From contig NZ_QZWI01000023.1 in NCBI RefSeq assembly GCF_003614975.1, positions 1 through 45,298 on the forward strand: DNA of 45,298 nucleotides, written 5' to 3'. Under the pieces are notes generated by a model. It made no database searches, was not told the DNA's origin, and saw only the letters and a list, made by a program, of their open reading frames with translations. Origin of the DNA: Rahnella bruchi. GTDB taxonomy: Bacteria; Pseudomonadota; Gammaproteobacteria; Enterobacterales; Enterobacteriaceae. Shown here one piece after another: positions 3,766-40,873 of this stretch (position 1 is its first letter; each line of letters opens with the position of its first letter). The translations under genes were made by a program, and so were the position numbers.

Positions 3766-3836
3766 TTAAAAATTTAGTTATTAATAAGCGTTTCTAATCT
3801 TATTAATTGTGCTCTTATACTAAGGGTAAATTTACT

Positions 3837-6800
3837 ATGTCTATATCAAAAAAAACAACACCGCTGCATTGGGTAAAGTTACCCCCAACTTTCGCACAGA
3901 AAAAAAATAAATTTAGTCTGTTAATTAGTGAGGTTGTCCTACTTTCGCTCTGTGGTTGCGGGAACGCTTTTGCTGAAGCCACATTAAGTGATGGGGCTTA
4001 TAAAGTGATTTCCATACAGTCATCTACCGGGAATGCTAGTTCTTCTGGACCCGGCTCGATAGCAATAGGTAGTGCCGCAGCAGCAATTGCATCAGGTCAA
4101 GCAGCTACTGCTGTGGGATATATGGCTTCAGCCACTGCGTCAGGCGCTACCGCTATTGGGCGTGATACTAGTGCGGCCGCAACTAATGCGTTAGCCCTCG
4201 GGAATGGTGCTTCATCGACGCTAGCGAACAGCGTTGCTCTCGGCAGCAACTCGACGGCCTCTGCCGTATCTGCTACCACCGCAAATACTGTGGCAAACTC
4301 ATTTATCAGTGGCAAAACCCTCTCAGTAATACAGGCTCCCACTAATGGTGTGGTGGCTATTGGTAACCGGCAGATACAGGGAGTCGCTGATGGACAGTTA
4401 TCCAGTACTTCGACTGATGCCGTGAACGGGTCACAGCTTTACCAGGTAACTACCGGGCTAAACAGCAATACAAATGCGCTGGGTTCCAGTACCGCCAGTG
4501 CGCTGGGTGGCGGTGCGGCTTATAACAGCACGACTGGTGCTTGGACTGCCCCGAGCTATTCTATTCAGGGCACAACTTTCAGTGACGTCGGCAGTGCATT
4601 GACAAAAGTAGACAGCGGGCTGACGGCACTAAACGGCGGCAATACTGGTCTGGTGCAGCGCACTGCCACCAGTAACGTGGCGACAATGACCGCCACTGGA
4701 GGCTCCGCGACAACGCCGGGTACGGCGCAGAAGCTGACCAATTTGGCGGCAGGCAATCTGGCGGCAGACTCCACCGACGCGGTAAACGGCAGTCAGCTGT
4801 TTACCACCAATACCAAAGTGGGTACGAATGCCACGAACTTAGCCAATCTAGGCACCAGTACGGCTAACGCACTGGGTGGCGGGGCAGCCTACAACAGCAC
4901 GACCGGTTCGTGGACCGCCCCGAGCTACACCGTGCAGGGGAGCAACTACAGCAACATCGGTGATGCCTTTGGCGGCGTAGACGGCAGCCTGACGGCGTTA
5001 ACCAGCAGCATTTCAGAGGGAACCACCGGCGTGGTGCAGCGTACCGATACGGCGAATAAAACCGTCCTGACAGCGGCCAACGGCACCGCCGCCGCCCCCG
5101 GAGAGACGCAGACGCTGAGCAATCTGACGGCGGGCAATCTGGCGGCAGACTCCACCGACGCGGTAAACGGCAGTCAGCTGTTTGCCACCAATACCAATGT
5201 GGGCACGAATACCACGAACTTAGCCAACCTAGGCACCAGTACCGCCAGCGCACTGGGCGGCGGGGCAGCCTACAACAGCACGACCGGTGCGTGGACCGCG
5301 CCGAGCTACACCGTGCAGGGAAGCAACTACAGCAACATCGGTGATGCCTTTGGCGGCGTTGACGGCAGCCTGACGGCGTTAACCGGCAGCATTTCAGAGG
5401 GAACCACCGGCGTGGTGCAGCGTACCGATACGGCGAATAAAACCGTCCTGACCGCGGCCAACGGTACCGCCGTCGCACCCGGGGAGACGCAGACGCTGAG
5501 CAACCTGGCGGCCGGTAATCTGGCGGCGGGATCCACCGACGCGGTCAACGGCAGCCAGCTGTTTGCCACCAATGCTAACGTGGCAACCAGTGCCACTAAT
5601 CTGGCTAACCTGGGTACCAGCACCGCCAGCTCGCTGGGCGGGGGAGCGGCTTACAACAGCAGCACCGGCGCGTGGACCGCGCCGAGCTACACCGTGCAGG
5701 GGAGCAACTACAGCAACATTGGTGATGCCTTTGGCGGCGTAGACGGCAGCCTGACGGCGTTAACCGGCAGCATTTCAGAGGGAACCACCGGCGTGGTGCA
5801 GCGTACCGATACGGCAAATAAAGCGGTGCTCACCGCCGCCAACGGTACCGCCGTCGCACCGGGGGAGGCGCAGACGCTGAGCAACCTGGCGGCCGGTAAT
5901 CTGGCGGCAGACTCCACCGACGCGGTGAACGGCAGCCAGCTGTTTGCCACCAATACCAATGTGGGCACGAATACCACGAACTTAGCCAACCTGGGTACCA
6001 GTACCGCCGGCGCGCTGGGCGGCGGGGCAGCCTACAACAGCAGCACCGGCGCCTGGACTGCGCCGAGCTACTCTATTCAGGGGAGCAGCTACGGGAACAT
6101 TGGTGATGCCTTTGGCGGCGTAGACAGAAGTCTAACGAGCCTGAGCAACAGCGTGGCGTCGGGCACCAACGGCGTTGTGCAGAGAACCGGTACGACTAAC
6201 GTCGCGACCTTAACCGCCGCCGATGGAACAGCCTCAGCGCCGGGTGCGGCACAGACGCTAACCAATCTGGCTCAGGGGCAGTTGACTGCAGACTCCACTG
6301 ATGCCGTCAACGGCAGCCAATTATATGCAGTGGCTGACCAGGTGTCTAAAAATACTACCGACATTTCTGGTCTGACCACCATTGTCAACAATGCAACCGA
6401 GAGTAATCTAGTCAAACAAAACAGTGAGGATAACAGTATCACTATCGGTGCTAGTAAGGCGGGGGCAACTGTGTCGATAGCGGGTACACAGGGTAACCGA
6501 ACGCTGGGCGGCGTGGCTGATGGTATCGCTGCCAATGATGCGGCTACGGTGGGGCAACTTCAGGGTGTAGCCGGTAATATCAGCAGCCGTGATGATACCG
6601 GTTTGGGCGTAGCGAAGGCGACGGGAAAGAACGGATTAGCGGTCGGTGCGGGAGCGGTGGCTTCGGGCGACTTCAGCACAGCTAACGGTGCAGGCGCGCA
6701 GGCAATAGGTACAAACAGCAGCGCCAGCGGAAGTGAAGCCAAAGCGACCGCCGCAAATGCCACTGCGGTCGGTCAGGGGGCGACGGCCTCGGGAGCAAGC

Positions 6801-7310
6801 ACGCTGGCGGCGGGGCAGGGCAGTAGTGCCACGGGCTCACAGGCCGTGGCGTTAGGTGTGGGTAGCGTCGCCAGTGGTTCACATTCAGTGGCGTTGGGGT
6901 ATGGCTCCGTGGCGGAAAGGGACAACAGCGTTTCCGTTGGCAGTGCAGGTCATGAGCGCCAGATAGCCAACGTCGCGGCGGGTACGTCCAGAACCGATGC
7001 TGCGAACGTGGGGCAGGTCAATGACGCATTCCAGAGTTTGGATAAGAGCGTCAATAATAAGATTAATGACCTGGATGATAAGCTGACCGGCGGCATTGCG
7101 TCGGCAATGGCGATGTCGGGAATCCCCCAAGCATACTTGCCTGATTCAAGCCTGATAGGCGCGTCGGCTTCTACGTATAACGGCCAGTCGGCAATATCGG
7201 TCGGCGTCTCTAAAACATCTGAGAGTGGCAAGTGGATAATGAAAATTAGCGGTAGCGGGAATACTCAAAGCGACTTTGGCGCTTCAGTTGGGGTCGGATA
7301 CCAGTGGTGA
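3837..7310 (+). CDS. YadA-like trimeric autotransporter adhesin
   Basis: A type Vc secreted adhesin of 1157 residues. The start was set at the ATG preceded by TAAGGG rather than an in-frame ATG 30 bases upstream. There is an extended signal sequence (charged N-terminus, hydrophobic core around residues 28-40, cleavage probably after AFA). YadA-head repeats of AIG/ALG type follow (about residues 65-140), then six neck-like STDAVNGSQL segments alternating with GGGAAYNSTTGAWTAPSY modules, then a second head block (GLAVGAGAVASGDFS onward). The end is a coiled stalk and a four-strand YadA anchor finishing VGYQW. The protein should sit in the outer membrane as a trimer and mediate adhesion or autoaggregation. 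It lies downstream of a SadB-like lipoprotein and upstream of a regulator/EAL pair. Confidence 0.95.
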   Translation: MSISKKTTPLHWVKLPPTFAQKKNKFSLLISEVVLLSLCGCGNAFAEATLSDGAYKVISIQSSTGNASSSGPGSIAIGSAAAAIASGQAATAVGYMASATASGATAIGRDTSAAATNALALGNGASSTLANSVALGSNSTASAVSATTANTVANSFISGKTLSVIQAPTNGVVAIGNRQIQGVADGQLSSTSTDAVNGSQLYQVTTGLNSNTNALGSSTASALGGGAAYNSTTGAWTAPSYSIQGTTFSDVGSALTKVDSGLTALNGGNTGLVQRTATSNVATMTATGGSATTPGTAQKLTNLAAGNLAADSTDAVNGSQLFTTNTKVGTNATNLANLGTSTANALGGGAAYNSTTGSWTAPSYTVQGSNYSNIGDAFGGVDGSLTALTSSISEGTTGVVQRTDTANKTVLTAANGTAAAPGETQTLSNLTAGNLAADSTDAVNGSQLFATNTNVGTNTTNLANLGTSTASALGGGAAYNSTTGAWTAPSYTVQGSNYSNIGDAFGGVDGSLTALTGSISEGTTGVVQRTDTANKTVLTAANGTAVAPGETQTLSNLAAGNLAAGSTDAVNGSQLFATNANVATSATNLANLGTSTASSLGGGAAYNSSTGAWTAPSYTVQGSNYSNIGDAFGGVDGSLTALTGSISEGTTGVVQRTDTANKAVLTAANGTAVAPGEAQTLSNLAAGNLAADSTDAVNGSQLFATNTNVGTNTTNLANLGTSTAGALGGGAAYNSSTGAWTAPSYSIQGSSYGNIGDAFGGVDRSLTSLSNSVASGTNGVVQRTGTTNVATLTAADGTASAPGAAQTLTNLAQGQLTADSTDAVNGSQLYAVADQVSKNTTDISGLTTIVNNATESNLVKQNSEDNSITIGASKAGATVSIAGTQGNRTLGGVADGIAANDAATVGQLQGVAGNISSRDDTGLGVAKATGKNGLAVGAGAVASGDFSTANGAGAQAIGTNSSASGSEAKATAANATAVGQGATASGASTLAAGQGSSATGSQAVALGVGSVASGSHSVALGYGSVAERDNSVSVGSAGHERQIANVAAGTSRTDAANVGQVNDAFQSLDKSVNNKINDLDDKLTGGIASAMAMSGIPQAYLPDSSLIGASASTYNGQSAISVGVSKTSESGKWIMKISGSGNTQSDFGASVGVGYQW
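4410..6320 (+). repeat. Tandem 381-bp modules inside adhesin gene
   Basis: The neck-encoding sequence for STDAVNGSQL recurs at 4410, 4770, 5151, 5532, 5913 and 6294. The first interval is 360 bp and the next four are exactly 381 bp (127 codons). The three central modules are almost identical at the DNA level, indicating recent duplication or gene conversion. This array is a likely site of copy-number variation and of assembly error. Confidence 0.9.
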
Positions 7311-7363
7311 GGAAAGGGCAACGGGCATGAGACCGGGGATATTGAGGGTTAGTTAACCGCGCG

Positions 7364-7382
7364 GGCGGCCCGCTGGGCCGTC
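7364..7382 (+). terminator. GC-rich hairpin after adhesin gene
   Basis: GGCGGCC and GGGCCGTCC form a tight stem with a GCT loop about 55 bases after the adhesin stop. No clear U-run follows, so termination efficiency is uncertain. Confidence 0.45.
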
Positions 7383-7498
7383 CATTATCATATTAACGTA
7401 AGGAAGACGAATACATAGAGTACCGGTAAAGAATGCACAAGTACTAGTGAGTGAATAAGTCCAATACATCAGAGTATATCCCACTACTGAGGAGCGTT

Positions 7499-8242
7499 AT
7501 GATGGATAAAACTTGCACCCCCACGATTGTGCCACGAGGAAGTTTTGCACCTTATTTTCATGAGATCTCGGTGATTTCATCGTGTTCCTACGTGTCACTG
7601 GGATTGTTGCAACTGTGTCACGGGGTTAGATGTATCGGCCGCCCTTACATGATTGACCTCTTCTCCGCTTACTATTTATCTAACGACACCCACACGATGA
7701 CTCATGAAAAGCGCGTTATTCCTCATCACCATTATGTCGTGCATCTGTCGACAGTGCTCGAGAGTATGCTTGCTGAACTGATGACGCTTGTCGTGCTTGT
7801 CAATAACCTGCCGTTAAGCAGTACGGTCACCGTATTAACCAACTGGCCACCGGATTTTATTTATCACACGCTTCGCCTTAATTTGCAAAAACGGATTGCT
7901 CTCGCTAAATGCCGGTGGATACTTGCAAAAAGTCCACTGTCTGATCTTTGCTCGAAAATACCGTATGCAGGCCCTCACGCGGCTGCGGTCATGCTTGAGA
8001 GGCATGTTGATAATGTGGAGGTACAAAGCCGTTATGTTGGATTAACATATTTTGAAATCAAAATGTTGTCAGGTTTTTTTTCTCATGCACACCCAGAAAC
8101 AAGGAGCATAGAGATGAAAAGCAAAAATTTTCATCACCATAAGATCTCGGGTCTGAGAAAACTCGCGCAGTTGCCAGGCAGAGAAGGGCGAGCCTTTGCA
8201 GGACTCATTCATTCAAGAAAAAAGTCCCTATGCATCCCTTAG
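7499..8242 (+). CDS. LuxR-type HTH transcriptional regulator
   Basis: About 247 residues from an ATG (second ATG three bases on) preceded by GAGGAG; an upstream in-frame GTG at 7451 has weaker support. The N-terminal part has no domain I can name. The C-terminal part reads like a divergent LuxR/GerE helix-turn-helix: LTYFEIKMLSGF at the start and HHHKISGLRKLA where the recognition helix and its follower would be. Such stand-alone regulators are common beside fimbrial and adhesin genes in enterobacteria. The gene overlaps the next one by 13 bases, so the two are probably co-translated, and a role in controlling the adhesin is likely by position. Confidence 0.65.
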   Translation: MMDKTCTPTIVPRGSFAPYFHEISVISSCSYVSLGLLQLCHGVRCIGRPYMIDLFSAYYLSNDTHTMTHEKRVIPHHHYVVHLSTVLESMLAELMTLVVLVNNLPLSSTVTVLTNWPPDFIYHTLRLNLQKRIALAKCRWILAKSPLSDLCSKIPYAGPHAAAVMLERHVDNVEVQSRYVGLTYFEIKMLSGFFSHAHPETRSIEMKSKNFHHHKISGLRKLAQLPGREGRAFAGLIHSRKKSLCIP

Positions 8243-8967
8243 TCAGCGAGGCGGCGGCCTTTGACGCGTTAGCGAGTGGGGATATTTTTCCATATTATCA
8301 ACCCGTCGTGAACAGCGATAAATATATTCTGGGTTATGAATTGCTGATGCGCTGGCAGATAGGGGAAGACATTCTTTCACCGGCGGCGTTTATGGCAAAC
8401 TTTCATTCTACCCGGCTATGGCAGCAACTCACGGAAATGATGATACATTCGGCGATTAATACTATCCTGCACGTTCCAGGGAGTATTACCTTTGCGGTCA
8501 ACCTACCGGATTGCCTACTCTACACGGAGTGGGTTGAGCATATTATGAGGCAGGTACGGTATCATTTAGTGGACAAAACTTTGATGTCACGCCTAGTATT
8601 TGAGATTAATGAGCGTACGACTCTTACGGAACTTTCACAAGGCGCGCGGGCAATTACCCTGCTCAGAGACAGTGGGTGCCGGGTCTATCTGGATGACTGT
8701 TTTGGGGAAACCAGCGTTTTCTTTCCGATGAAAAATATTCCGCTCGACGGGTTTAAGATAGACAAAAGCATTATCGATACTTTTCAGTATAACACCTATC
8801 ATGAATACTTTATCCGGTCGCTGATTTATTTCTGTAGTCTTAGCCAAACAATTTGCATTGCCGAAGGCGTCGATACGCAGGCAAAGCTTGAGGCACTCAA
8901 AGTGTTGGGCATCAACGGTTTTCAAGGGTATTTGATAGGAAGGCCGGGGACACTGGGTTTTGACTGA
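8230..8967 (+). CDS. EAL-domain cyclic-di-GMP phosphodiesterase
   Basis: A 245-residue protein made almost entirely of one EAL domain, which hydrolyses c-di-GMP to pGpG. The metal and substrate residues appear present: Glu37 (ELLMR in place of EALLR), Asn91 (NLP), Glu125 (FEINE), Asp155-Asp156 (LDDCFGETS, where the usual DDFGTG loop has an extra residue), Lys176 (FKID), Glu212 (AEGVD) and Gln232 (QGYL). It has no sensor domain, GGDEF domain or membrane segment. The start lies inside the end of the upstream LuxR-type gene, which indicates coupling. Loop 6 is unusual, so reduced activity or a binding-only role is possible. The setting suggests that c-di-GMP controls the neighbouring adhesin. 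Confidence 0.85.
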   Translation: MHPLVSEAAAFDALASGDIFPYYQPVVNSDKYILGYELLMRWQIGEDILSPAAFMANFHSTRLWQQLTEMMIHSAINTILHVPGSITFAVNLPDCLLYTEWVEHIMRQVRYHLVDKTLMSRLVFEINERTTLTELSQGARAITLLRDSGCRVYLDDCFGETSVFFPMKNIPLDGFKIDKSIIDTFQYNTYHEYFIRSLIYFCSLSQTICIAEGVDTQAKLEALKVLGINGFQGYLIGRPGTLGFD

Positions 8968-9031
8968 AGGGCGAGGGCCGATGAAAACAGGAGCCGTAAG
9001 GTAGGGGAGAGGAGTTTGTGCTGAAAAATTT

Positions 9032-9100
9032 GAGTGCCACCGTTTCGGTAGATATATTCTGTCCTCACGATGAGGCCTTTTCGAAGGCCACAGAGCTAAT
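9032..9100 (-). mobile_element. Decayed IS200/IS605-type right-end remnant (copy A)
   Basis: The region between the EAL gene and namZ (about 400 bases) holds no convincing gene. Part of it aligns with the orphan IS200/IS605-like end at 25753-25860: both share GAGTG, CTCAC, TGAGGCCT, TTCGAAGGCC and GCTAAT in the same order. This copy has substitutions and a small deletion. The hairpin AGGCCT/AGGCC around TTCGAA is kept. Confidence 0.4.
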
Positions 9101-9331
9101 CTCCTCCTGGAAATGCGAATAAAATTATCTATTGAAGTGCCCGATATTTTATCGTGCAAGTCTGAAAGTAATTTACATGCAAAAAGAAAGGGGTGATGAG
9201 AAATACAGATCATCAATATCGTTGAAATTATATGTGATGGCCTATTGGTTTGACCTGAAAATCAGTCAGGGTTGGTATTTGCCCTTGATAAGAGTACGCC
9301 GTGGCAGGATCTGATAGTGTCGTTAATAATA

Positions 9332-9358
9332 AAGGGTAACGATACTGCCGCTACCCTT
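9332..9358 (-). terminator. Terminator of the nagZ-like/porin/namZ operon
   Basis: AAGGGTA and TACCCTT form a perfect 7-bp stem 13 bases beyond the namZ stop. On the minus strand it is followed by TTATTATTAA, a moderately U-rich tail. Confidence 0.6.
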
Positions 9359-9371
9359 GAGAGCCGGTAAC

Positions 9372-10691
9372 TTATTCGTAGAACCGATATTTTTCTCTTA
9401 GTTTGAGATACCTGTCGATACCCGGCTGCCAATGGGTTTCAACCATTTTTACCGTATCATCCACGTTCAGGCCCTGCAGGTCAGCCTGCTGCAGAAGCTC
9501 CGGCAATTTGCTGGTGCCGGTCAGTTTAGCAAGCCAGGTGGGACGCAGCAGGAATATCGAATCCTGGTAGTCTAAATAGTTTTCTTCTTGCGTTGGGTTA
9601 GCAACCATACTGTAACCCGCCTTATTAAAGCGCTGCCACCAGTCGACAAAATTGTAAATACTCGGCCTGATAGACGTGAGCTCCTGGGCGTTAAACCGCT
9701 CGCCGCAGACTTCTTTTCCCGCCTGAGGCCAGCCAAGTTTTTTCTGTTTTATATCAACATGATAACATGTGTTGATATAAAACTGACGATCGGGGAATCC
9801 CAGTTGCTCAAATGGATAATCGGATCCTCTGCCGCTATTCAAACTGGTTGCTTCAAATAGCCCTAATGACGGGTAGAGTTGCACAGCCAGGTCGCTGCGA
9901 AGATTCGGCGAAGGCCAGACCGGCAGCGAATAGGGCATGTCATGCTTGTAGCCACTCATCTCAATCACCTTTACGTCCTGGGGTGTAAACCGCCAGTTGC
10001 TATCGCCATAGGCGGCACTATGAATATCGGCAAACTGCGTAAGCCAGCCTTCGCCCACAATCATGCGGGCGAACTCACCTGAGGTCAGACCGTGCACCAT
10101 GGGGATCGGATGTATCCCGATGCCAGAGATATTGTTCGCTTCCAGAATCGGTCCGTAAACATATTGGCCCAGCGGATTTGGCCTGTCGAAAACCATAAAT
10201 TGCTTATGGTGCAACTGCAGACTTTCCAGCATGTGGTGCATCGAGATCGTGTAAGTGTAAAACCGTACACCGACGTCCTGCAGGTCGTAAATGACAATAT
10301 CGACATCCGCTAACTGTTCCGCCGTTGGGTGAGCCCGCGAGCGCCCATCGGCATCCTTTCCATATAGCGAAATAATCGGTAGCCCGGTTTTCACATCCTT
10401 ATGATCATCATCGCCGAGGCCAGTATCGGCATTGCCGCGAATGCCATGTTCAACGGAATATAACGTGGTGACCTTGAAGTGATATTTTTCCTGCTCGCTT
10501 AACAATTTATCTATGGTGTGTAACCTGTCTTTATTGAGCGAACTTTGGTTAACCATCAACCCTACCCGTTTATTAAACAACAGCGGTCCATATATGTTGT
10601 CCCGATCAACGCCTAATTGAATATCACTCCCTGCGTTAGCAGAGTTCACCATCGTGATCAGTAAGAGCAAACCGAGTAAAACGTGTCGCAT
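9372..10691 (-). CDS. namZ: NamZ-type exo-beta-N-acetylmuramidase (DUF1343)
   Basis: A 439-residue exported enzyme of the DUF1343/YbbC family, which removes terminal MurNAc from the non-reducing end of peptidoglycan chains (NamZ of Bacillus subtilis and Tannerella). Residues 1-20 are a signal peptide (cleavage after ANA). The family signature EHGIRG carries the expected catalytic Glu81, followed by family motifs DLQDVGVRFYTY and FDRPNPLG. AGGAG precedes the ATG. It is the last gene of a three-gene operon, 17 bases after the porin gene. Working with the NagZ-type enzyme upstream, it would split GlcNAc-MurNAc chains into monosaccharides in the periplasm or outside, feeding MurP/MurQ encoded nearby. 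Confidence 0.85.
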   Translation of the reverse strand: MRHVLLGLLLLITMVNSANAGSDIQLGVDRDNIYGPLLFNKRVGLMVNQSSLNKDRLHTIDKLLSEQEKYHFKVTTLYSVEHGIRGNADTGLGDDDHKDVKTGLPIISLYGKDADGRSRAHPTAEQLADVDIVIYDLQDVGVRFYTYTISMHHMLESLQLHHKQFMVFDRPNPLGQYVYGPILEANNISGIGIHPIPMVHGLTSGEFARMIVGEGWLTQFADIHSAAYGDSNWRFTPQDVKVIEMSGYKHDMPYSLPVWPSPNLRSDLAVQLYPSLGLFEATSLNSGRGSDYPFEQLGFPDRQFYINTCYHVDIKQKKLGWPQAGKEVCGERFNAQELTSIRPSIYNFVDWWQRFNKAGYSMVANPTQEENYLDYQDSIFLLRPTWLAKLTGTSKLPELLQQADLQGLNVDDTVKMVETHWQPGIDRYLKLREKYRFYE

Positions 10692-10708
10692 TCCCTATCT
10701 CCTGATGG

Positions 10709-11785
10709 TTAGAAATTATGCCGTAGCTCCAGAGCCCAGAACCAAAAATTGTTACTGGTACGCTCACCGTTAGCCCAAGTGCGCTCCGGGCGATAATAAA
10801 CATCGGTGAAAATGGAGGTTTTTTGGGTAAAGGGATAAATAGACTGGAAACCAAAACGGCTACGGTCTTTTTCTTTATAAGTAAACTCTTCATTATTTGA
10901 ATTGCGGAAACTTTGCGTTCCACGGGTTAACGCCAAACGCGTATAAGGCATAAGGAGGAATCCGTCATCAAATTTATAACGATAAGTAGCCCAAAGGAAA
11001 TGCTCCTTATTATAGAGTGTATTTACCAGCTGTTCATCGATAAACAGATAGTTCAGCCACAGTGAGTTCTTTGAGTTAAAGGTGATATTAGCACCAGCGA
11101 AATGCTCATTAATCTGGCTCCAATCGCGTTTATATACCCCATATTCACCCTGTGCACGCGCATAGTCTAATTTACGGTCAATCAGACGAAATGACAGGCT
11201 GACGTTAAAACTGAGACTATCAGAATAGTGATACAGCGCCTGCGGGCGAATCCAAATCTCGTGACGTTCTTCCCCTTTACGAATATCCCCTTTATACTCC
11301 GGCGCCGCCAACGCCGGAGTATTGATAGAGGCAAAATGCCAGTTATCGTTACGGTAGCCGACGCGTAGCTTAGTATTGCCGCTTTTGCCATTAATGGTAA
11401 AAGGGAAGGTGCGCGTTACCCCTGCCTGCCAACGCGTGCGGTCATACTCCTGGCTATTATCAATATAGGTTTTCAGGAACTGTACATCGTAAAGCCACAG
11501 GGAGTCATCCTGATAAATCCAGGCACCGGCGTAAGGCGAAGTCGCCATACTGCCTTGCAAAAACTTCCAGTTGTCGTCGCTGTCAATCTCCTGCTCGGTA
11601 CCTAAATAGGCTTCAATGTTCCAAGTTTGCTGCTGAGACTTTTCTTTATTATTCTTTTCTAACTGCTGAATATGTTGATTGAGCTTAAGGATTTCCTGGT
11701 CGTAATCAATTTCGAACTCATCCGCGTTAGCCGTCCATGCAAAAAAAAAGCTGCTGCACAGAACTAATTTCGCTGTAGTTTTCAC
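10709..11785 (-). CDS. OmpG-like outer-membrane porin
   Basis: A 358-residue outer-membrane protein with a GTG start (AAGGAG nine bases upstream) and a signal peptide ending ANA (residues 1-21). A short coiled-coil-like stretch (about residues 28-50, EILKLNQHIQQLEKNNKE) comes before a barrel rich in alternating aromatic strands, ending in RHNF, a Phe-terminated signal for the BAM complex. Size and pattern fit an OmpG-type monomeric porin for oligosaccharides, but I cannot confirm the family by eye. It lies 21 bases after the nagZ-like gene and 17 before namZ, so a role in admitting muropeptide sugars is likely. The N-terminal coiled coil is unusual for OmpG. Confidence 0.65.
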   Translation of the reverse strand: MKTTAKLVLCSSFFFAWTANADEFEIDYDQEILKLNQHIQQLEKNNKEKSQQQTWNIEAYLGTEQEIDSDDNWKFLQGSMATSPYAGAWIYQDDSLWLYDVQFLKTYIDNSQEYDRTRWQAGVTRTFPFTINGKSGNTKLRVGYRNDNWHFASINTPALAAPEYKGDIRKGEERHEIWIRPQALYHYSDSLSFNVSLSFRLIDRKLDYARAQGEYGVYKRDWSQINEHFAGANITFNSKNSLWLNYLFIDEQLVNTLYNKEHFLWATYRYKFDDGFLLMPYTRLALTRGTQSFRNSNNEEFTYKEKDRSRFGFQSIYPFTQKTSIFTDVYYRPERTWANGERTSNNFWFWALELRHNF

Positions 11786-11806
11786 TATCCAAAACTCCTT
11801 TTTTAA

Positions 11807-13675
11807 TCAGAATGTTAATCCATGGCCACGGGAATAAAGTAATCGGCTATTATCGGGTGTTTTAATCTCTACCGGTAATTTACCCTGGGGAGAAGCAAGC
11901 ACAGTGCTTTTTCCTGCCGGCCCCATGAACAGTGTTCTTAATCCGCTACGAATATTTGTCTCGAGGCTGTTTCTAATATTATTGGTCACGTCGAATCCCG
12001 TGATGCCATAGATTGCAATATTGGCATCTACGTTGGTTAAATAAGCGATGTCATACGGATTACGGGAAGAGATAACCACCAGTGGAATTTTATGTTCTTT
12101 TGCGACATCGATAATTCTCTGCGCGTTAGCCGGGTTGGTTTTCAGATTGTAAGTGGTAAGAATAATAAATTGTTGACCCGCAATTTGTTTTTCAATTTCA
12201 TTCTTTGTGAGTTGGTCCTGCCCAAGATTAACCACCTCATCGCTAACGTTCATGATGACGTGTAATTCTTTGCCAATCTGCGCCAAATGTTTATTGATTA
12301 ACTGATTACGTGGCTTTTCATCGGAGTAAACCAGTATGTTGTTCTCAGCTTTCAGCGGGAACGGCAATACCTGGTTGTTAACAATCAGTGTGATAGCTTG
12401 TGCCGAGATAGCATTTTCGAGCGATTTATGCATTTCAGAGCCGACAATTTTTTCTGCATGCTCGGCATCATGAGGGGCGGCAGAGATTTGCTTATTCAGT
12501 TTGGTAAACACGATGCGTTCAGCTGATTCGTGGATCCGTTTCCTGAGCTGCGGATTTTTCTGGGCTTCTTCTTTTAACGAGGCGTAGACCGCACCCAACT
12601 GCTCAATACTGGCGTCATCCTTGATTTCAAGTGGCATCAGAACGATGTCATTTCCTGCCAGAATGGCTTGTTTAATTGACCACAGGCGATCAAAATTACC
12701 GCTGATGGCGCCCATATCCATGGCATCCGTCAGAATCAAGCCTTTGAAATGGAGTTGATGACGCAAGATATCGGTCAGTATGGGTTTAGATAGCGTCGCA
12801 GGGGTACCAATTTTCTCACCGGTGATACTGGTAAGTTCAGTATTATCCAAAGCCGGTACAACAACGTGTGCCGTCATGATGGCGTCGGCGACGGGCATAA
12901 CGTCGACAAAGGGCTTGAGCTCGGTTTTATGCCATGAGGCTTTATCGGTATTGACAGTGGGTAATGCAAAGTGCGTGTCCGATGCCACGTTGCCATGGCC
13001 AGGGAAGTGCTTAAGCGAGGTCAAAACCGGATAATGGTGAATACCTTCGATATAGGCTTTAGCACTATTGCCGACGAGAAGAGGATCGTCAGAATAGGCT
13101 CGCACCCCGATGACAGGATTGTTTTGATTATTATTAACATCTACTACCGGGCCAAAGTTAAAATTAAACCCCAGGCTGGAAAGCTCATAACCATGAATTT
13201 TACCCGATTGCTCTGCGAGTTTTTGCGAGCCAGTGGCGCCTAATGCCATATTGCCTGGCATTTCAGTCCCTACTTGCAGGCGAGTTACATAACCACCTTC
13301 CTGGTCAGTACTAATAAATAACGGTAGGTTACTGCGGGCCGCCTGTAACGCATTGATTAGTTCTACCGTCTGAGGGGTATTAATAAGGTTTTCCCGAAAT
13401 AAAATCACGGAACCAAGATGGAACTCGTTGATGAGTTTTTTAACAGAATTATTCGCGACAGTAAATGGGCTCTTATCTGCGTTATTATTTTCACGCCATG
13501 AACGAATATCAATCATGAACATTTGGCCTAACTGTTCATCAAATGACATATTATTAACAATGTTTTTTGCGCTATCTTCAGGTGAATGCCAAAGTTTTTT
13601 TAATTCTATATCTGACAGTGTTGTTCCATGGCTGTAACTACTAAGTACTAACAACAGGGGTAATAAATTTTTCAT
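11807..13675 (-). CDS. Exported NagZ-type GH3 beta-N-acetylglucosaminidase
   Basis: A 622-residue glycoside hydrolase family 3 enzyme. Residues 1-17 look like a signal peptide, unlike the cytosolic NagZ of E. coli (about 340 residues). The catalytic TIM barrel shows KHFPGHG (222-228), the Asp-His dyad DTH (Asp233, His235) and nucleophile Asp317 in LTDAMDM. These positions correspond closely to the long, exported two-domain NagZ of Bacillus. A C-terminal alpha/beta domain of about 230 residues follows. It should release terminal GlcNAc from peptidoglycan chains outside the cytoplasm, alternating with NamZ. It is the first gene of the operon, and its leader carries a CRP-like site. Confidence 0.85.
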   Translation of the reverse strand: MKNLLPLLLVLSSYSHGTTLSDIELKKLWHSPEDSAKNIVNNMSFDEQLGQMFMIDIRSWRENNNADKSPFTVANNSVKKLINEFHLGSVILFRENLINTPQTVELINALQAARSNLPLFISTDQEGGYVTRLQVGTEMPGNMALGATGSQKLAEQSGKIHGYELSSLGFNFNFGPVVDVNNNQNNPVIGVRAYSDDPLLVGNSAKAYIEGIHHYPVLTSLKHFPGHGNVASDTHFALPTVNTDKASWHKTELKPFVDVMPVADAIMTAHVVVPALDNTELTSITGEKIGTPATLSKPILTDILRHQLHFKGLILTDAMDMGAISGNFDRLWSIKQAILAGNDIVLMPLEIKDDASIEQLGAVYASLKEEAQKNPQLRKRIHESAERIVFTKLNKQISAAPHDAEHAEKIVGSEMHKSLENAISAQAITLIVNNQVLPFPLKAENNILVYSDEKPRNQLINKHLAQIGKELHVIMNVSDEVVNLGQDQLTKNEIEKQIAGQQFIILTTYNLKTNPANAQRIIDVAKEHKIPLVVISSRNPYDIAYLTNVDANIAIYGITGFDVTNNIRNSLETNIRSGLRTLFMGPAGKSTVLASPQGKLPVEIKTPDNSRLLYSRGHGLTF

Positions 13676-13729
13676 TCCTATCTCCGCTATTTATTTTGGC
13701 CAGATTTTACGTGGCACTGCGGTTAATAA

Positions 13730-13745
13730 AGTGATGGTTATCACA
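13730..13745 (-). promoter_or_regulatory. CRP-like site upstream of nagZ-like operon
   Basis: AGTGA-N6-TCACA, one base from the TGTGA-N6-TCACA consensus, lies about 55 bases before the nagZ-like start. It suggests catabolite control of the operon. Confidence 0.5.
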
Positions 13746-13857
13746 GTTGTTCTATTCGTGCTTTAAGGGTTTTGGGGAATAAATACCTTTCTTTTCATAA
13801 TTAATATCATAAAAGGCGCACAGATCAGCGCTGAAATTAAGAATATTAAATCTTAGG

Positions 13858-13868
13858 TTGGAATAATT
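13858..13868. promoter_or_regulatory. TTGGAAT motif, possible MurR-like half-site
   Basis: TTGGAATAATT resembles the arms of the inverted repeat in front of the divergent regulator/murQ genes, suggesting the same repressor acts on both operons. A single half-site is weak evidence. Confidence 0.3.
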
Positions 13869-13933
13869 ATTGTGCTTTTCAACAAAAATTAGCCACTGAA
13901 GTACAGTTAGCGATCACACTTTTCGCGGCACAG

Positions 13934-14794
13934 TTAATCATTAAGCCTATTAATGGCCTGATGAGCATTCAATACCAGCGGCTTAGCGACCTCTTTACGA
14001 TGTTGCATAAGTGCCAGAAAAATTAAATCGCTGATCGTATTTTGTGCCGTACGTGAAGAGATAGAAGAGCTACGCCATTCGTTCTCTTCAGAGACACTTT
14101 CCAGTACATAGTCAGCTATCCTAGCGAGGGGGTTCTCTTTATCACCAGTAATAACAATCACTTTAGCTCCCCTAGATTTGGCCGACGTGGCGGCAATGCG
14201 CATGTCTTTTTTAGTGCCACTGAACGAAATGACAATTTGTACATCCTCCGCTGTGAGTGTGAGTGCAGTAGCAATCTGGACATGAAGATCGGCCTCTGAG
14301 AGACTGAAAATACCTATTTTCTGTAGTTTGTAGCTCAGATCTTTCGCCGTCAGTCCTGAGCCCCAAATACCGATGATTTGTACCCGGCGAGCCGCGTTAA
14401 TTGCCTCAACGGCCCTTTGTAAAATGGGGAAATTAATGCGGCGGGTGGTTTCTTCTATGGCGGCAGTTTTTTCATGAGCCAGTTTTTGTGCCATTAGCAT
14501 CAGCGAGTCCTCCGGAGAGATAGCATTGTGCAGTGCATGATGGGGATTATTCTTGTAAAGATTGTTGCGGCATAGCTCCCGGCTGAGGGCGAGCTTCATC
14601 GCAGGAAATCCCTTCATACCAATCTTCTGGCTGAATTTAACTATTGCTGACTGGCTTACGCCGGTCACTTCAGCGAAGGAGGAGGAGGACATATCCAGTA
14701 CTTTTTCGGGAAAATTAAGAATGTATCTGGCAATCTTCTTCTGGTTTTCAGCTAATTCTGGCAGTAGCCAGGTGATCTCATTTAGGACAGACAT
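13934..14794 (-). CDS. RpiR-family regulator, MurR-like
   Basis: A 286-residue protein with an N-terminal RpiR HTH (LNEITWLLPELAENQKKIARYIL, then SFAEVTGVSQSAIVKFSQKIG) and a C-terminal SIS sugar-phosphate-binding domain (about 125-250, with IIGIWGSG and ISFSGTKKD). The start was set at the ATG; an in-frame GTG 12 bases upstream lacks a better ribosome site. RpiR/MurR proteins repress MurNAc genes and respond to MurNAc-6-phosphate. It is divergent from murQ-murP and codirectional with the nagZ-like operon, so it probably controls both. Confidence 0.85.
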   Translation of the reverse strand: MSVLNEITWLLPELAENQKKIARYILNFPEKVLDMSSSSFAEVTGVSQSAIVKFSQKIGMKGFPAMKLALSRELCRNNLYKNNPHHALHNAISPEDSLMLMAQKLAHEKTAAIEETTRRINFPILQRAVEAINAARRVQIIGIWGSGLTAKDLSYKLQKIGIFSLSEADLHVQIATALTLTAEDVQIVISFSGTKKDMRIAATSAKSRGAKVIVITGDKENPLARIADYVLESVSEENEWRSSSISSRTAQNTISDLIFLALMQHRKEVAKPLVLNAHQAINRLND

Positions 14795-14833
14795 ACAAAT
14801 TCTCACAAGTTAAGTGGCGGATTATTCCATTGC

Positions 14834-14853
14834 TATTGGACATCATTCCAATA
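14834..14853. promoter_or_regulatory. Candidate MurR-like operator
   Basis: TATTGGA-N6-TCCAATA is a perfect 7-bp inverted repeat between the divergent regulator and murQ. A further ATTCCA lies just before it. Confidence 0.5.
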
Positions 14854-14916
14854 ACGTAATGTTTTGAAATAAAACACAAATATAATGTTTCCGCGCTTTC
14901 AAAACGCTGCTCTATT

Positions 14917-14933
14917 CTGTGTGAGACACACAG
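14917..14933. promoter_or_regulatory. Perfect palindrome upstream of murQ
   Basis: CTGTGTG-AGA-CACACAG, seven-base arms around three bases, lies 17 bases before the CRP-like site. It could be a second operator or a transcript-start hairpin. Confidence 0.4.
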
Positions 14934-14949
14934 CGAGAATACATTTTAT

Positions 14950-14965
14950 CGTGATGATTATCACA
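14950..14965 (+). promoter_or_regulatory. CRP site upstream of murQ
   Basis: CGTGA-N6-TCACA, with AT-rich flanks, matches the CRP consensus at nine of ten core positions and lies about 58 bases before the murQ start. This fits the known cAMP-CRP control of murQP in E. coli. Confidence 0.6.
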
Positions 14966-15022
14966 TAATTAAAATAAATAATTCCCTAACCTGATTGATA
15001 TATTTAACGAATGGAAGTCCTG

Positions 15023-15931
15023 ATGAACATTAATTTAAGCAAGATGGTGACTGAAAGCCGTAACCCGGCGACTGCGGCAATTGATACACTGCCGACCCTG
15101 GAGGTATTAACTGTTATCAACCATGAAGATAAGCAAGTGCCGGTGGCAGTAGAGGCTACCCTGCCACAGATAGCCAAAATAGTAGATAAAGTCGTCGAGG
15201 CTTTCGCTCAGGGTGGCAGACTTATCTATAGCGGTGCGGGAACCTCCGGACGTTTGGGGATCCTCGATGCCAGCGAATGTCCGCCGACCTATGGCACTCC
15301 GCGCGAGCAGGTAGTGGGTTTGATCGCGGGAGGACAGATAGCGATTTTGCAAGCGGTAGAAAATGCAGAGGACAGCCGTGAAATGGGGGAACAGGATCTA
15401 CGCAACCTGAATTTCAGCGCCCGCGATATCCTGGTGGGAATTGCGGCCAGTGGGCGCACACCCTATGTTTTGGGGGCCATGTCCTATGCGAAAAGCGTTG
15501 GCGCGACGGTTGCCTCTATCTCATGTAACCCGGGAAGTGAAATGAGCCAGGCGGCAGATATTGCTATCGAAGCCATTGTGGGGCCGGAAGTAGTTACCGG
15601 TTCATCGCGCATGAAAGCAGGTACAGCCCAAAAGCTCCTCCTCAATATGATTACCACCGGGGCTATGATCCGCAGTGGCAAGGTGTATGGCAACCTGATG
15701 GTGGATGTTGAGGCGACCAATGCCAAACTTTTCCAACGCCAAATCAATATCGTGGTTGAAGCAACACAATGTAGCCCGTCAGAAGCAGAGAGCGCACTTG
15801 AAGCGTGCAATCGCCATTGTAAAACGGCAATTTTGATGATTATCAGCGGCCTGTCTGCCGATGAGTCTGCAGAATTATTGAAGAAAAATAAGGGCTTTAT
15901 CCGTAATGCGCTCCAGGGAGTAAAGAGTTAA
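15023..15931 (+). CDS. murQ: N-acetylmuramic acid 6-phosphate etherase
   Basis: A cytoplasmic lyase that cleaves the lactyl ether of MurNAc-6-P, giving GlcNAc-6-P and D-lactate. It is 302 residues from the ATG preceded by GGAAG (another ATG lies 12 bases upstream). A SIS domain shows [20 protein letters not shown] with catalytic Glu85, the second acidic site in AVENAED (about Glu116), and [12 protein letters not shown]. Length fits the family (about 298). It lies two bases before murP, so the two form an operon. Its sugar phosphate supply comes from MurP, with MurNAc released by NamZ. Confidence 0.95.
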
Positions 15932-15933
15932 TC

Positions 15934-17385
15934 ATGGCTAAAATTACTAGCTCACTAATACAGCAAATTTTGCTCTTCACCGGAGGGCGTGAAAACATCA
16001 TAATTTGCGGTAACTGCATGACGCGGTTAAGACTGACGCTAAAGGACCGAAATCTAGTTGAAAATGACAACCTGAAAAAACTCCCAGGGGTGATGGGGGT
16101 AGTCAATGGTGATGACCAACTGCAAATAATTCTCGGCCCTGGTAAGGCCCAAACGGCCAGTGAACTGCTGAACAAAGAGTTACTGATGACGGGCGGAGAA
16201 CCGGCTGAACAGGACAGCAATGCCGATTTACAATCCGTTGCCAGCCAACAAAAACAGCAGATGAAAGCGAAACAAAACAGCGCAGTGCATAACTTTCTGA
16301 CTAAGTTTGCCACTATTTTTACCCCGCTAATCCCAGGTTTTATCGCCGCTGGCCTGCTACTGGGCATTGCAACGCTGATTCAGCAGACGATGATAGTGGA
16401 GGACGTAGCCCCTTCTGCCTGGCTATTGCATCTTATCGCCTACATGAAAGTGTTCAGCATTGGGCTCTTTACCTTCCTTAGCATCCTGATTGGCTTTAAT
16501 ACTCAGAAAGCCTTCGGAGGAACGGGAGTAAACGGTGCAATTATCGCTTCGCTGTTTATCTTGCGCTACGTCCCTGAGGGGACAGTAGGTTACTACGCCG
16601 GGATGGATAATTTCTTCAGCCTTACCATTGATCCACGCGGAAATATTATCGGTGTGTTGTTGGCGTGTATTTTCGGAGCGTGGATTGAGCGTCAGGTACG
16701 TCGGGTTATTCCTGATAACCTGGATATGATCCTGACTTCGTCGATTACATTACTCATCACCGGCGCGGTAACTTTCGTCGTGATCATGCCTATAGGGGGG
16801 GAACTCTTCAAAGGCATGTCTTGGTTGTTTATCCATCTTAACGGTAATCCTTTTGGCACTGCCGTTTTAGCCGGGGTATTCCTGATTGCCGTCGTCTTCG
16901 GTATCCATCAAGGTTTTGTGCCAGTTTACTTCGCGCTGATGGATGCTCAAGGCTTTAACTCACTGTTTCCCATCCTTGCTATGGCCGGTGCAGGGCAAGT
17001 CGGGGCCGCACTAGCGCTGTTTGTCCGCTCACCCAAAGGCTCTGTGCTGCGCACTCAAATTAAAGGTGCTATTTTCCCGGGGCTTCTGGGAATAGGTGAA
17101 CCGCTGATTTATGGCGTTACATTGCCGCGTCTGAAACCTTTTATCACCGCTTGTATCGGCGGCGGCATAGGCGGTTTCTTTATCGGTCTGGCTGCCTGGC
17201 TTGGAGTTCCGGTAGGGCTAAATACCGTGTTCGGTCCGTCTGGTCTGGTATCTATTCCGCTGATGACCTCTCATCAGGGCATTTTCATTGGTATGGCGGT
17301 ATATGTAGTGGCTCTCCTTATCGCTTACCTCGCCGGGTTTATTCTCACCTGGTTCTATGGTAGTAAAAATATTGATTTAAGCTAA
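15934..17385 (+). CDS. murP: PTS N-acetylmuramic acid transporter IIBC
   Basis: A 483-residue inner-membrane permease that imports and phosphorylates MurNAc. The N-terminal IIB domain (about 1-90) carries the phospho-Cys28 in GNCMTRLR. A Gln/Lys-rich linker (about 95-120) follows, then a IIC domain of some ten membrane segments with the PTS signature [14 protein letters not shown]. There is no IIA domain, as in E. coli MurP, which borrows IIA-Glc (Crr). It is the second gene of the murQP operon. Confidence 0.92.
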
Positions 17386-17420: not shown

Positions 17421-17820
17421 GTAGCGACTTTAATTCTGCCCTTGCGTTCTCTGCTCCTCCCTTTACCCTCCCCTCGGTATATGTAGTGGCATAGTGAACT
17501 TGGTTACCAAAATAGAGGGGTAACATCACCTCATAGTCAAAACAAGTGACATTATGATCCGACGTAACAGATGTACTCCGCCGGTAATTTTATTAATGCT
17601 CAACTGTTTGGATAATGAAAGAAACCTACCTTGTAGGGCTTGCGAAAATAACGTAAGCAATCCGTAATTCATTGTCATATTTTCCGAAAATCAAATATTG
17701 GCCGCTGAACCTCCGATATATCCCACAGTCTGTTAGCGAGGTTGTTTCTTCTGATAGCAAAATCTTTTGTTAACAGGAATTTTTGTTAGTTGGAAAACGG
17801 CGAGCACGTATCACATGACA
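17421..17820 (+). other. 400-base gap between murP and bamA paralogue, with possible sigma-E promoter
   Basis: No gene is visible. TGAACCT at 17706 and TCTGT at 17729, 16 bases apart, resemble a sigma-E promoter (GGAACTT, TCTGA) and would start transcription near 17740. A 16-base stretch at 17475-17490 repeats part of murP (17297-17312). The promoter is inference, drawn from the known sigma-E control of bamA genes. Confidence 0.3.
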
Positions 17821-20238
17821 ATGAAAAAATTACTCTTAGCGTCGCTGCTGTTCAGCAGCGTTCCAGTTTTCGCTGCGGGCGGGTTTGTCGTCAAAGACAT
17901 TCACGTCGAAGGATTGCAGCGGGTCACTGTCGGTGCGGCGTTGCTGAGCATTCCGGTGCGCGTGGGCGATTCGGTATCGGATGAAGATATCAGCCAGACG
18001 ATCCGTGCCCTGTTCGCCACCGGCAATTTTGAAGATGTGAACGTACTGGAAGATGGCAACACGCTGATTGTGCAGGTGAAAGAACGCCCGACGATTGCGA
18101 GCATCACGTTTTCGGGTAACAAAGCCATCAAAGATGAGATGTTGCAGCAAAACCTGGAAGCCTCTGGTGTCCGCGTGGGAGACGCGCTGGACCGCACCAC
18201 GATTTCCTCGATTGAGAAGGGAGTGGAGGATTTCTATTACAGCGTCGGCAAATACAGCGCCAGCGTAAAAGCCGTGGTCACGCCGCTGCCGCGTAACCGC
18301 GTGGATGTGAAACTGGTCTTTACCGAAGGCATGTCGGCGAAAATTCAGCAAATTAATACCGTGGGTAATAAAGCCTTTGCCACTGACGATTTAATCGCCC
18401 ATTTTCAGCTGCGCGATGAAGTGCCGTGGTGGAATGTGATTGACGATAAGAAATATGAAAAACAAAAACTGTCCGGCGATTTAGAAACGCTGCGCAGTTT
18501 TTATCTCGATCGCGGTTATGCCCGTTTTAATATCGATTCCACGCAGGTCAGTTTAGCGCCAGATAAGAAAGGGATTTATATTACCGTGAATATGAGTGAG
18601 GGTGAGCAATATAAAATTTCCGGCGTGGTGGTCAGCGGCAGCATGGCCGGGCATTCGTCAGAAATCGAAGCGCTGGCCGCCATTCCTGCCGGGGAGTTGT
18701 ACAACGGCGCGAAGATCACCAAAGTTGAAGGTGATATTAAAAATCTGTTGGGGCGCTACGGTTATGCTTATCCGCACGTCACCACACAAAGCGACATCAA
18801 TGACGCGGATAAAAGCGTGAAACTGCGTATCAGCGTGGATACCGGTAACCGGTATTCGGTGCGCCACATCCGCTTCGAAGGTAACGACACGTCGAAAGAT
18901 GAAGTGCTGCGCCGCGAAATGCGTCAGATGGAAGGCGCGTGGCTGGGCAACGATCTGGTGCAGAAAGGTAAAGATCGCCTCAACCGCACCGGCTATTTCG
19001 AAACGATAGATGTGGATACGCAACCGGTGCCGGGCTCAAACGATCAGGTGGATGTGATCTACAAAGTCAAAGAGCGTAACACCGGCACCTTCAACATCGG
19101 CGTGGGATACGGCACCGACAGCGGCATCAGTTATCAACTGGGCGTGACGCAGGATAACTGGCTTGGCAGCGGCAATACGGTCAGTTTCAGCGGTACACGT
19201 AACTCGTACCAGACCTATGTCGAAGTCTCGGCAACCAACCCGTATTACACGGTTGATGGCGTCAGTCTTGGCGGCAAAGTGTTCTATAACCACTACGACG
19301 CGGAAGATGACGATCTGGCGGCATATAACCTGCAAAGTTACGGTGCAGGCATGAATTTGGGTCTGCCGGTCAGCGAAAACAACACGCTGAATCTGGGGCT
19401 GGATTACGTCCACAGCACGCTCACTGACATGGAGCCGCAGGTGGCGGTCTGGCGTTATCTTAATGCCAGCGGCGTCAAGCCGGGGCTGGTGACCACCTCC
19501 ACCAACAGCGATGCCGAACTGCGCACCAACGATTTCTTCGCCAGCGTCGGCTGGGCGTATAACGACCTGAACCGTGGCTTCTTCCCGTCTTCAGGCACCC
19601 GCGCCAGCCTGGCTGCCAAGGTGACCATACCGGGTTCAGACGAAAGTTATTACAAAATCACCTTCGATGCTAACCATTACATTGCGCTGAGTGACACATC
19701 AGACTGGGTGCTGATGGGCCGTGCCAAAGCCGGTTATGCGGCAGGCATCGGCAGCAACGACGTGCCGTTCTACGATAACTTCTATGCGGGCGGTTCCAGC
19801 TCGGTGCGCGGCTTCTCGTCCAACACTATCGGGCCGAAAGCGGCGTATTACAAATGCAGCAGCGCAGACAGTTCGTATTCCACCTGTCCGGTGAGCAAAT
19901 CCACCGATGCGGTGGGCGGTAATGCGATGGCGATCGCCAGTGCGGAATTGTATGTGCCGACACCGTTTATCAGCGAGAAATACACCAGCTCGGTGCGGAC
20001 TTCATTATTTGTTGATTCCGGTACGATGTGGGACACCAGATGGCAAAATACAGCAGCCACTGAAGCTGCTGGTATTCCGGATTACAGTGATCCGATGCAT
20101 ATCCGTGTTTCCAGCGGTATTGCGTTGCAATGGCAATCACCGCTCGGCCCGCTGGTATTCTCTTATGCACAACCGCTGGTAAAATATGAAGGCGACAGTG
20201 CGGAACAATTCCAGTTTAATATCGGGAAGACATGGTAA
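17821..20238 (+). CDS. BamA-family outer-membrane assembly factor (paralogue)
   Basis: An 805-residue protein aligning with E. coli BamA from end to end: signal peptide (1-20, cleavage after VFA), five POTRA domains (about 21-420; [14 protein letters not shown] to KVKERNTG), and a 16-strand barrel with the loop 6 motif VRGF, two loop cysteines (YKCSS and STCPVS) and the terminal [10 protein letters not shown] chromosomal bamA normally lies between rseP and skp in the lipid A gene cluster. Here the gene stands alone between murP and msrB, so this is probably a second copy. It inserts beta-barrel proteins into the outer membrane, perhaps with altered clients or conditions. The barrel looks more diverged than the POTRA part. 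Start: ATG codons at 17815 and 17821 are both possible. Confidence 0.9.
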
Positions 20239-40751: not shown

Positions 40752-40775
40752 AAGACCCCCTTTACTTATGAGTGG

Positions 40776-40873
40776 TATATTACTCGTTAATGAAGAATAG
40801 TCCATTTAACGTTACCTAAAACACCCATTAGAAGGTTTTTTTGAATTTACTGCGTTTTATATCACTCGTTAAT
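40776..40873 (-). promoter_or_regulatory. Repeated 16-base elements upstream of hipA
   Basis: TATATTACTCGTTAAT (40776) and TATATCACTCGTTAAT (40858) are direct repeats differing by one base, 82 bases apart. The first lies within an imperfect GAGT...ACTC palindrome. They are probable HipB operators. Confidence 0.55.

Follow-up and report, generated by a model that had tools for sequence, protein, structure and literature searches.

A predicted MurR/CRP-controlled regulon for the use of peptidoglycan glycan as food in Rahnella bruchi

Introduction

Can an enteric bacterium draw on peptidoglycan glycan as food and, if so, where does the glycan come from? The question is raised by six genes in a 45,298-base stretch of Rahnella bruchi DNA (the window), which is the whole of contig C23 of a 5.50 Mb genome, here called G000. 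The list of open reading frames (ORFs) confirms the six at the positions assigned in an earlier note on this DNA. On the minus strand lie namZ, a porin gene, a long nagZ for an exported protein, and a murR-type gene; murQ and murP are divergent from these, on the plus strand (Table 1). The earlier note proposed that NagZ and NamZ alternately remove N-acetylglucosamine (GlcNAc) and N-acetylmuramic acid (MurNAc) from wall material outside the cytoplasm, an interpretation that our analysis supports in part. We think it probable that the locus is a regulon, controlled by MurR and CRP, for using peptidoglycan glycan as food. This reading is built on the gene set, export signals called by a simple rule, conserved catalytic positions, a fixed operon and a shared, predicted composite operator, all read from sequence. 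Of what is new here, the evidence on regulation is the strongest.

As it is taught, Enterobacterales recycle their wall internally, in the cytosol. The locus predicts that some members feed on glycan through a porin of their own, and that the trait moves between genera, plasmids included. It also supplies a candidate porin specific to wall sugars, and a predicted MurR-type operator that is precise enough for seeking further regulon members.

A shared, predicted operator

The regulator gene encodes a protein of the RpiR/MurR type by family, and MurQ and MurP both score above curated equivalog cut-offs (Table 1), so that the three identifications first proposed stand. A composite site precedes both nagZ and murQ: TATTCY, a spacer of 17 or 18 bases, GAATM, and then 6-10 bases to a CRP-type site, GTGA-N6-TCAC. 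At murQ the predicted operator is a perfect 6-nucleotide (nt) inverted repeat, TATTCT/AGAATA, whose arms stand 17 nt apart. How specific is the pattern? The 5.5 Mb R. bruchi genome has two matches, one before each operon, and 12 further genomes have 18. By coordinates, all 20 matches sit immediately upstream of either murQ or nagZ, at both operons in seven of the 13 genomes and at a murQ only in the other six; the reversed pattern, used as a control, gave no matches. The composite is present at the murQ genes of three sister loci (L044-L046), described below. In Vibrio cholerae murQP is under CRP control, and the organism can grow with MurNAc as its only carbon source (available text of PMC10328515).

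The MurR box alone is found in 17 of 21 regions upstream of nagZ and in all 16 upstream of murQ, where shuffled sequences lead one to expect 0.03 per set; the pattern was derived from these same loci, so that the shuffle figures are no blind test, and this must be counted against our reading. The 16 murQ genes are the window's own, those linked to a nagZ-porin-namZ row (hereafter the trio), and five from genomes in which murQ and the trio are unlinked or lie on different contigs, with other murQ loci excluded. The fairer tests of the pattern are its absence elsewhere in the genomes and its behaviour at unlinked loci. In Yersinia rohdei the trio lies away from murRQP, beside genes that we read by eye as pst-phoU, and the composite is kept at both places. 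The unlinked trios of Providencia, Moellerella and plasmids retain the MurR box. Is there a regulator for these boxes? MurR-type orthologues, 62-76% identical, are encoded elsewhere in four genomes with an unlinked trio, and in the three Providencia and Moellerella genomes a 62-64% MurR orthologue lies beside murQ elsewhere. The Providencia plasmids carry no MurR, so the box there would depend on the chromosome. A second MurR box precedes murQ in two Yersinia loci, and one precedes the porin-murQ operon of locus L047.

A further perfect inverted repeat, TATTGGA/TCCAATA, lies near the start of murR (window 14834-14853) and may be an autoregulatory site.

The exported hydrolases

What would the two hydrolases do? 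The window protein matches the Pfam domains NamZ_N (214 bits, cut-off 26.9) and NamZ_C (45 bits, cut-off 25), and we take NamZ to be family GH171. Its Glu81, presumably the catalytic residue, lies in the motif SxEHGxRG, is the same in all 11 sequences aligned and is matched also in the structures 4jja and 4k05. By family and by this conserved position, the protein is a likely exo-beta-N-acetylmuramidase. The long GH3 protein matches Bacillus subtilis NagZ/YbbD (3bmx) over its full length (residues 36-621, E 7.8e-107). Asp233, His235 and Asp317, which we take to be the catalytic Asp/His dyad and the nucleophile, are invariant in 10 of 10 sequences, and in the alignment with 3bmx Asp317 falls on the TDA motif. 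Family and conserved catalytic positions again suggest the activity, here that of a beta-N-acetylglucosaminidase.

The earlier note had both enzymes exported. Our signal-peptide call is a simple rule of our own and not a trained predictor; it was positive for NagZ in 21 of 21 cases, for NamZ in 20 of 21 and for the porin in 18 of 20 (a set that excludes L033, not placed by our script), and negative for all 11 MurR and all 11 MurQ proteins. The porin and NamZ misses of a Moellerella locus (L038) are explained by a start codon placed too far into the gene, as that genome's own ORFs indicate. Export of NagZ and NamZ is supported by these counts, and both proposals about the enzymes, residues included, have held up by family and conservation.

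Is the long GH3 protein simply the NagZ of wall recycling? This possibility is ruled out. On the model for cytosolic NagZ (PRK05337) it scores 174 bits, under the cut-off of 207, and the true recycling enzyme is encoded separately at G000:C1 (517 bits). The recycling NagZ is also retained in each of 11 genomes, so that the long NagZ is an addition.

The available text of PMC13204101 mentions NagZ and NamZ as extracellular enzymes, and that of PMC10465942 treats periplasmic muramidases. How widespread is NamZ? It occurs in 25 of 369 gammaproteobacterial genomes, R. bruchi included. In a tree, the NamZ proteins of the trios and the lone NamZ of one genome (G273) form a single clade of 22 rows (support 100/100), from which 24 other gammaproteobacterial NamZ proteins are separate, with long-branch warnings. 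Wider neighbourhoods were fetched for 16 of these 24 genomes, and a NamZ relative is listed in 13 of the 16; L089, L091 and L095 gave no row, through a crude choice of ORFs. One of the 13 neighbourhoods (L090) holds a long-NagZ relative and MurQ nearby. NamZ alone, as query against genome contigs, returned five stretches with no relative among them.

The porin

The third product of the trio was described at the outset as an OmpG-like porin. That a porin gene lies in the operon is borne out, and the likeness to OmpG is distant. AlphaFold2 models of the porin reach predicted local distance difference test (pLDDT) values of 75.4 and 80.5. In the better model there are 16 strand segments by DSSP, which become 14 strands when two broken pairs are merged, as we have done, and an N-terminal helix at residues 28-49. 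Points of likeness to OmpG are a strand count that, so merged, would be near 14, and a weak profile similarity through sister porins. The latter, found beside other long NagZ genes, match OmpG with 77 and 69 bits (cut-off 26.5) and OmpG in the PDB at E 4.2e-7; the profile of the window-type porins matches these OmpG-family sisters with probability 89.8 and E 1.8e-6, both profiles being shallow. A Pfam scan of 17 members of the window type gave weak, scattered matches only, and OmpG (PF09381) is not among the families listed. On sequence and predicted structure, then, the porin appears OmpG-like at a distance, short of OmpG membership. Its substrate would be wall sugars or chains.

A fixed operon that appears to move

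Do these genes belong together? In the family, 11 of 392 genomes have NamZ, and ten of the 11 carry nagZ, the porin gene and namZ in a row; the exception, G273, has a fragment besides a lipoprotein-like NamZ that stands alone. When the porin served as query, 18 loci came up, and in every one NagZ and NamZ flank it. The loci come from nine Yersinia species, Serratia sp. H1w, Kosakonia oryziphila, Pectobacterium versatile, two Providencia, Moellerella, Klebsiella sp. BIGb0407, an uncultured Cedecea and a metagenome-assembled genome (MAG); at least 8 of the 18 are from the same assemblies as genomes in the set of 392. murR-murQP adjoins the trio in ten loci and is absent beside it in seven, and one locus ends at a contig edge. 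The co-occurrence of exported NagZ, porin and NamZ with murQP in Enterobacterales, which the earlier note suggested looking for, is thus found, with the trio as its constant part. The recurring arrangement, across genomes and in the loci found through the porin, rules out a chance neighbourhood of six genes.

The same linkages bear on what the hydrolases cut. Enzymes of the GH3 NagZ type are able to act on further GlcNAc glycosides, and with such breadth one might suppose that chitin oligomers or host glycans are the substrates and that the linkage to MurQ and MurP is incidental. The pairing with NamZ, the adjacent murRQP in 10 of 18 loci, and an operator held in common even when the loci are unlinked all speak against this, and we give it hardly any weight.

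The trio is complete on both of two Providencia plasmids (L042, NZ_CP145926.1; L043, NZ_CP086258.1); of 72,556 plasmid records no others match the porin. On these two plasmids fimbrial genes lie on one side of the trio and an lpxL gene on the other; traI is nearby, yet both plasmids are typed as non-mobilizable. At the DNA level, megablast and distant blastn found no match to the trio among the 20,395 records of an E. coli collection; the distant blastn query of 3,879 bases covered namZ, the porin gene and most of nagZ, with murQP not included. NamZ was likewise unmatched in E. coli as one of 14 control genomes, in keeping with the view that E. coli has no NamZ. GC content, as a fraction, is 0.44-0.49 in the trio, 0.46-0.52 in murRQP and 0.50-0.55 in those right-flank genes that were measured; to the left, the neighbouring genes (7451-8967) are also low, at 0.45-0.47, and the autotransporter gene has 0.58. 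In relatives the trio is mostly, not always, below its own locus in GC. All this suggests horizontal gain of the trio. Among the literature matches listed there is no description of an enterobacterial nagZ-porin-namZ trio, most subscription papers being outside our reach.

Related arrangements

Is the joining of an exported NagZ to a porin peculiar to the trio? The three sister loci, from three genomes of one genus (L044, 5965-12656; L045; L046), encode a long NagZ lipoprotein, an OmpG-family porin, a MurR-type regulator, MurQ and MurP. The OmpG Pfam assignment was run on one of the three porins, and the other two are 94-96% identical to it. The row at L050 of G273 (4265-9582) lacks NamZ and consists of genes for a long NagZ, a porin of the OmpG family and a glycosyl hydrolase lipoprotein of type GHL10; there is no MurR box within 400 bases upstream of it. 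In another family of the order (L090), NamZ adjoins murQ, and a GH3 relative of the long NagZ and an Na+/H+ antiporter-family gene are nearby; no BLAST relative of the window porin was found at that locus. From these arrangements it follows that the joining of exported NagZ to a porin and to MurNAc genes recurs.

Another MurQ/MurP locus of the R. bruchi genome itself (L052, G000:C22:8000-26000) has, upstream of murQ, genes for a Porin_4 porin and a DUF2057 protein, with a divergent MurR-type gene. L047 likewise has Porin_4 and DUF2057 genes before its murQ.

Points against the regulon

Several further points weigh against a MurR/CRP-controlled regulon for wall glycan. The murR-type protein scores 236 bits on the E. 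coli MurR equivalog (PRK15482), under the cut-off of 408. Four of the 21 nagZ upstream regions lack the box: one is at a contig end, and three belong to the Klebsiella BIGb0407/Cedecea/MAG group, which has a different palindrome before its trio and whose nearest regulator is 42% identical. No MurR box was found at the second murQ of two genomes of this group (L056 and L057) or at E. coli murQ, and none is listed for two further murQ loci of the R. bruchi genome (L051 and L052). The porin has no Pfam family at E up to 1 and no NCBIfam family, and a profile search of the PDB gave one chance match at E 2 and no sensible one; in this, and in its extra N-terminal helix, it differs from OmpG. The porin is present in one of 14 genomes of the genus, that of R. 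bruchi, a sporadic occurrence. There is no amidase among the six genes, by ORF list and Pfam. Finally, the NagZ and NamZ activities are themselves predictions.

Two of these points can be followed further. Since the cluster has no amidase, removal of peptides must come from other genes or from the surroundings, and the description of the system as complete was overstated; Amidase_2 genes are present elsewhere in all seven trio genomes tested. As to palindromes, a compact one, GGAATANNNWATTCC, occurs in three trio-only genomes, before the trio in 3/3, before a lipoprotein NagZ gene in 3/3 and before a second murQ in 2/2. It also occurs at four other places; of the two inspected, one is intergenic, upstream of a fimbrial-looking operon, and one is within an ORF (both labelled by eye). 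With the pattern reversed as a control there are 1 to 3 matches per genome, and together with the extra places this makes the palindrome less specific.

Source of the glycan and a proposed pathway

Is the glycan foreign, or is it shed by the cell itself? One might think that the locus recycles the cell's own denuded glycan in the periplasm: AmiA/B/C-type amidases would strip septal glycan, NagZ and NamZ would finish the chains to monomers for MurP, and the porin would be an accessory or a passage for sugars in general. The exo-action of the two enzymes fits peptide-free chains. So does the L050 row of G273 (a genome that we assign to the Serratia group), with its long NagZ, its OmpG-family porin and its GHL10 lipoprotein, since we take DigH, a denuded-glycan hydrolase, to be a member of the GHL10 family. 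Against self-recycling, the cell's own wall is already served by the cytosolic NagZ, which 11 of 11 genomes retain. A porin in the operon of 10 of the 11 NamZ-bearing genomes, together with the CRP-type site, points to carbon from outside, and a sporadic, partly plasmid-borne presence would be odd for a housekeeping function. On the side of self-recycling again, E. coli makes and degrades denuded chains at division, and DigH degrades peptide-free glycan (PMC12288456, in whose available text GHL10 is not mentioned). We judge self-recycling unlikely, though it is the most serious of the alternatives. Four things lead us to favour an outside supply: there is a porin in the operon, a CRP-type site precedes the genes, the cytosolic NagZ has been retained, and the distribution is mobile and sporadic.

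If the glycan does come from outside, the following pathway can be proposed, in which we infer the enzyme activities, the porin's substrate, the inducer and the foreign source of the glycan. The porin would let peptide-poor glycan fragments cross the outer membrane. In the periplasm, exported NagZ would take GlcNAc and NamZ would take MurNAc, alternating, from the non-reducing end. MurP would import and phosphorylate MurNAc, and MurQ would convert MurNAc-6-phosphate to GlcNAc-6-phosphate. MurNAc-6-phosphate would relieve MurR-type repression at both operators, and a requirement for cyclic AMP-CRP would turn the genes on only when better sugars are scarce.

Must MurP take up the monomer? The MurP of Staphylococcus aureus takes up the disaccharide MurNAc-GlcNAc, according to the available text of PMC6262408. 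If the R. bruchi protein did so, exported NagZ would merely prime the chains and NamZ would serve some other purpose. Such a route needs the 6-phospho-muramidase MupG, of which there is none among the six genes, the rest of the genome not having been searched, and NamZ is in the operon in 18/18 loci. We consider this route very improbable.

A broader proposal, for use of outside glycan, is made with some hesitation. The trio may be a self-contained, horizontally mobile glycan locus whose porin is a dedicated gate for wall oligosaccharides and whose own operator plugs into the resident MurR/CRP circuit. Enterobacterales in guts or on plants might then feed on wall debris released by host lysozyme, phage or competitors. 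Several hosts of the trio are presumably gut, insect or plant isolates, judging by strain names.

Comparison with known systems

How does the cluster compare with known MurNAc systems? We take ybbC of B. subtilis and of Tannerella forsythia to be namZ. The R. bruchi cluster resembles the MurNAc cluster of B. subtilis in bringing together an exported two-domain NagZ, NamZ, MurQ, MurP and a MurR-type regulator at one locus. The B. subtilis cluster is murQ-murR-murP-amiE-nagZ-ybbC, with the amidase gene amiE included, as given in the available text of PMC5061867. The enzyme set that had been equated with this cluster is therefore matched in all but amiE, which is absent from the six genes. The R. 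bruchi cluster differs also in its added porin, its Gram-negative host, its division into two divergent units, each with one composite MurR/CRP-type operator, and a trio that occurs also unlinked and on plasmids.

T. forsythia is, like R. bruchi, Gram-negative, and its ybbC is co-transcribed with MurNAc uptake genes for the use of environmental wall; the operon holds ybbC, ampG and murTKQ, and this MurNAc auxotroph uses AmpG, MurT and MurK under GppX (available text of PMC5388701). R. bruchi has instead a MurP of the phosphotransferase system (PTS) and MurR/CRP-type sites, with exported NagZ and the porin in one operon. With the murR-murQP-yfeW region of E. coli it shares a murR divergent from murQP, whereas E. 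coli murQP has no NamZ, exported NagZ or porin alongside, and yfeW (PBP4B) follows murP.

Features of the window

Coordinates are collected in Table 1. The terminator-like hairpin just 3' of namZ is weak, since five such sites were found against 8.5 expected in shuffles. A promoter scan gave a site count no higher than in shuffles.

Table 1. Genes and predicted sites of the R. bruchi locus (window coordinates; aa, amino acids; HTH, helix-turn-helix)
Feature	Coordinates	Strand	Evidence
Terminator-like hairpin just 3' of namZ	9332..9358	-	Consensus scan only, weak
namZ, predicted exported exo-beta-N-acetylmuramidase family protein, 439 aa	9372..10691	-	Pfam; Glu81; signal peptide-like N-terminus
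Outer-membrane porin gene, 358 aa	10709..11785	-	AlphaFold2 barrel; distant OmpG-family profile match
nagZ, long two-domain exported GH3 protein of beta-N-acetylglucosaminidase type, 622 aa	11807..13675	-	3bmx match
Predicted MurR-type operator and CRP-type site, upstream of nagZ	13731..13781	-	Composite pattern, conserved in relatives
MurR/RpiR-type regulator gene, 290 aa, HTH_6 and SIS	13934..14806	-	Pfam, NCBIfam
Predicted MurR-type operator and CRP-type site, upstream of murQ	14913..14964	+	Composite pattern
murQ, N-acetylmuramic acid 6-phosphate etherase	15011..15931	+	TIGR00274, 431 bits (cut-off 302)
murP, N-acetylmuramic acid PTS transporter IIBC	15934..17385	+	PRK09586, 830 bits (cut-off 516)

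Directly downstream of murP is a second complete BamA-type Omp85 gene (17767-20238, plus strand). It is 76% identical to the other copy (G000:C12:23178-25595), and no BLAST relative of it was found in the 31 related loci searched. To the left of the locus lies a YadA-type trimeric autotransporter gene (3807-7310), followed by an orphan ORF without a family (7451-8242) and a gene for a stand-alone EAL protein (8230-8967). Farther to the right, a HipA/HipB-like pair on the minus strand (38932-40805), made up of a HipA_C-domain protein and an HTH protein, is a possible toxin-antitoxin module.

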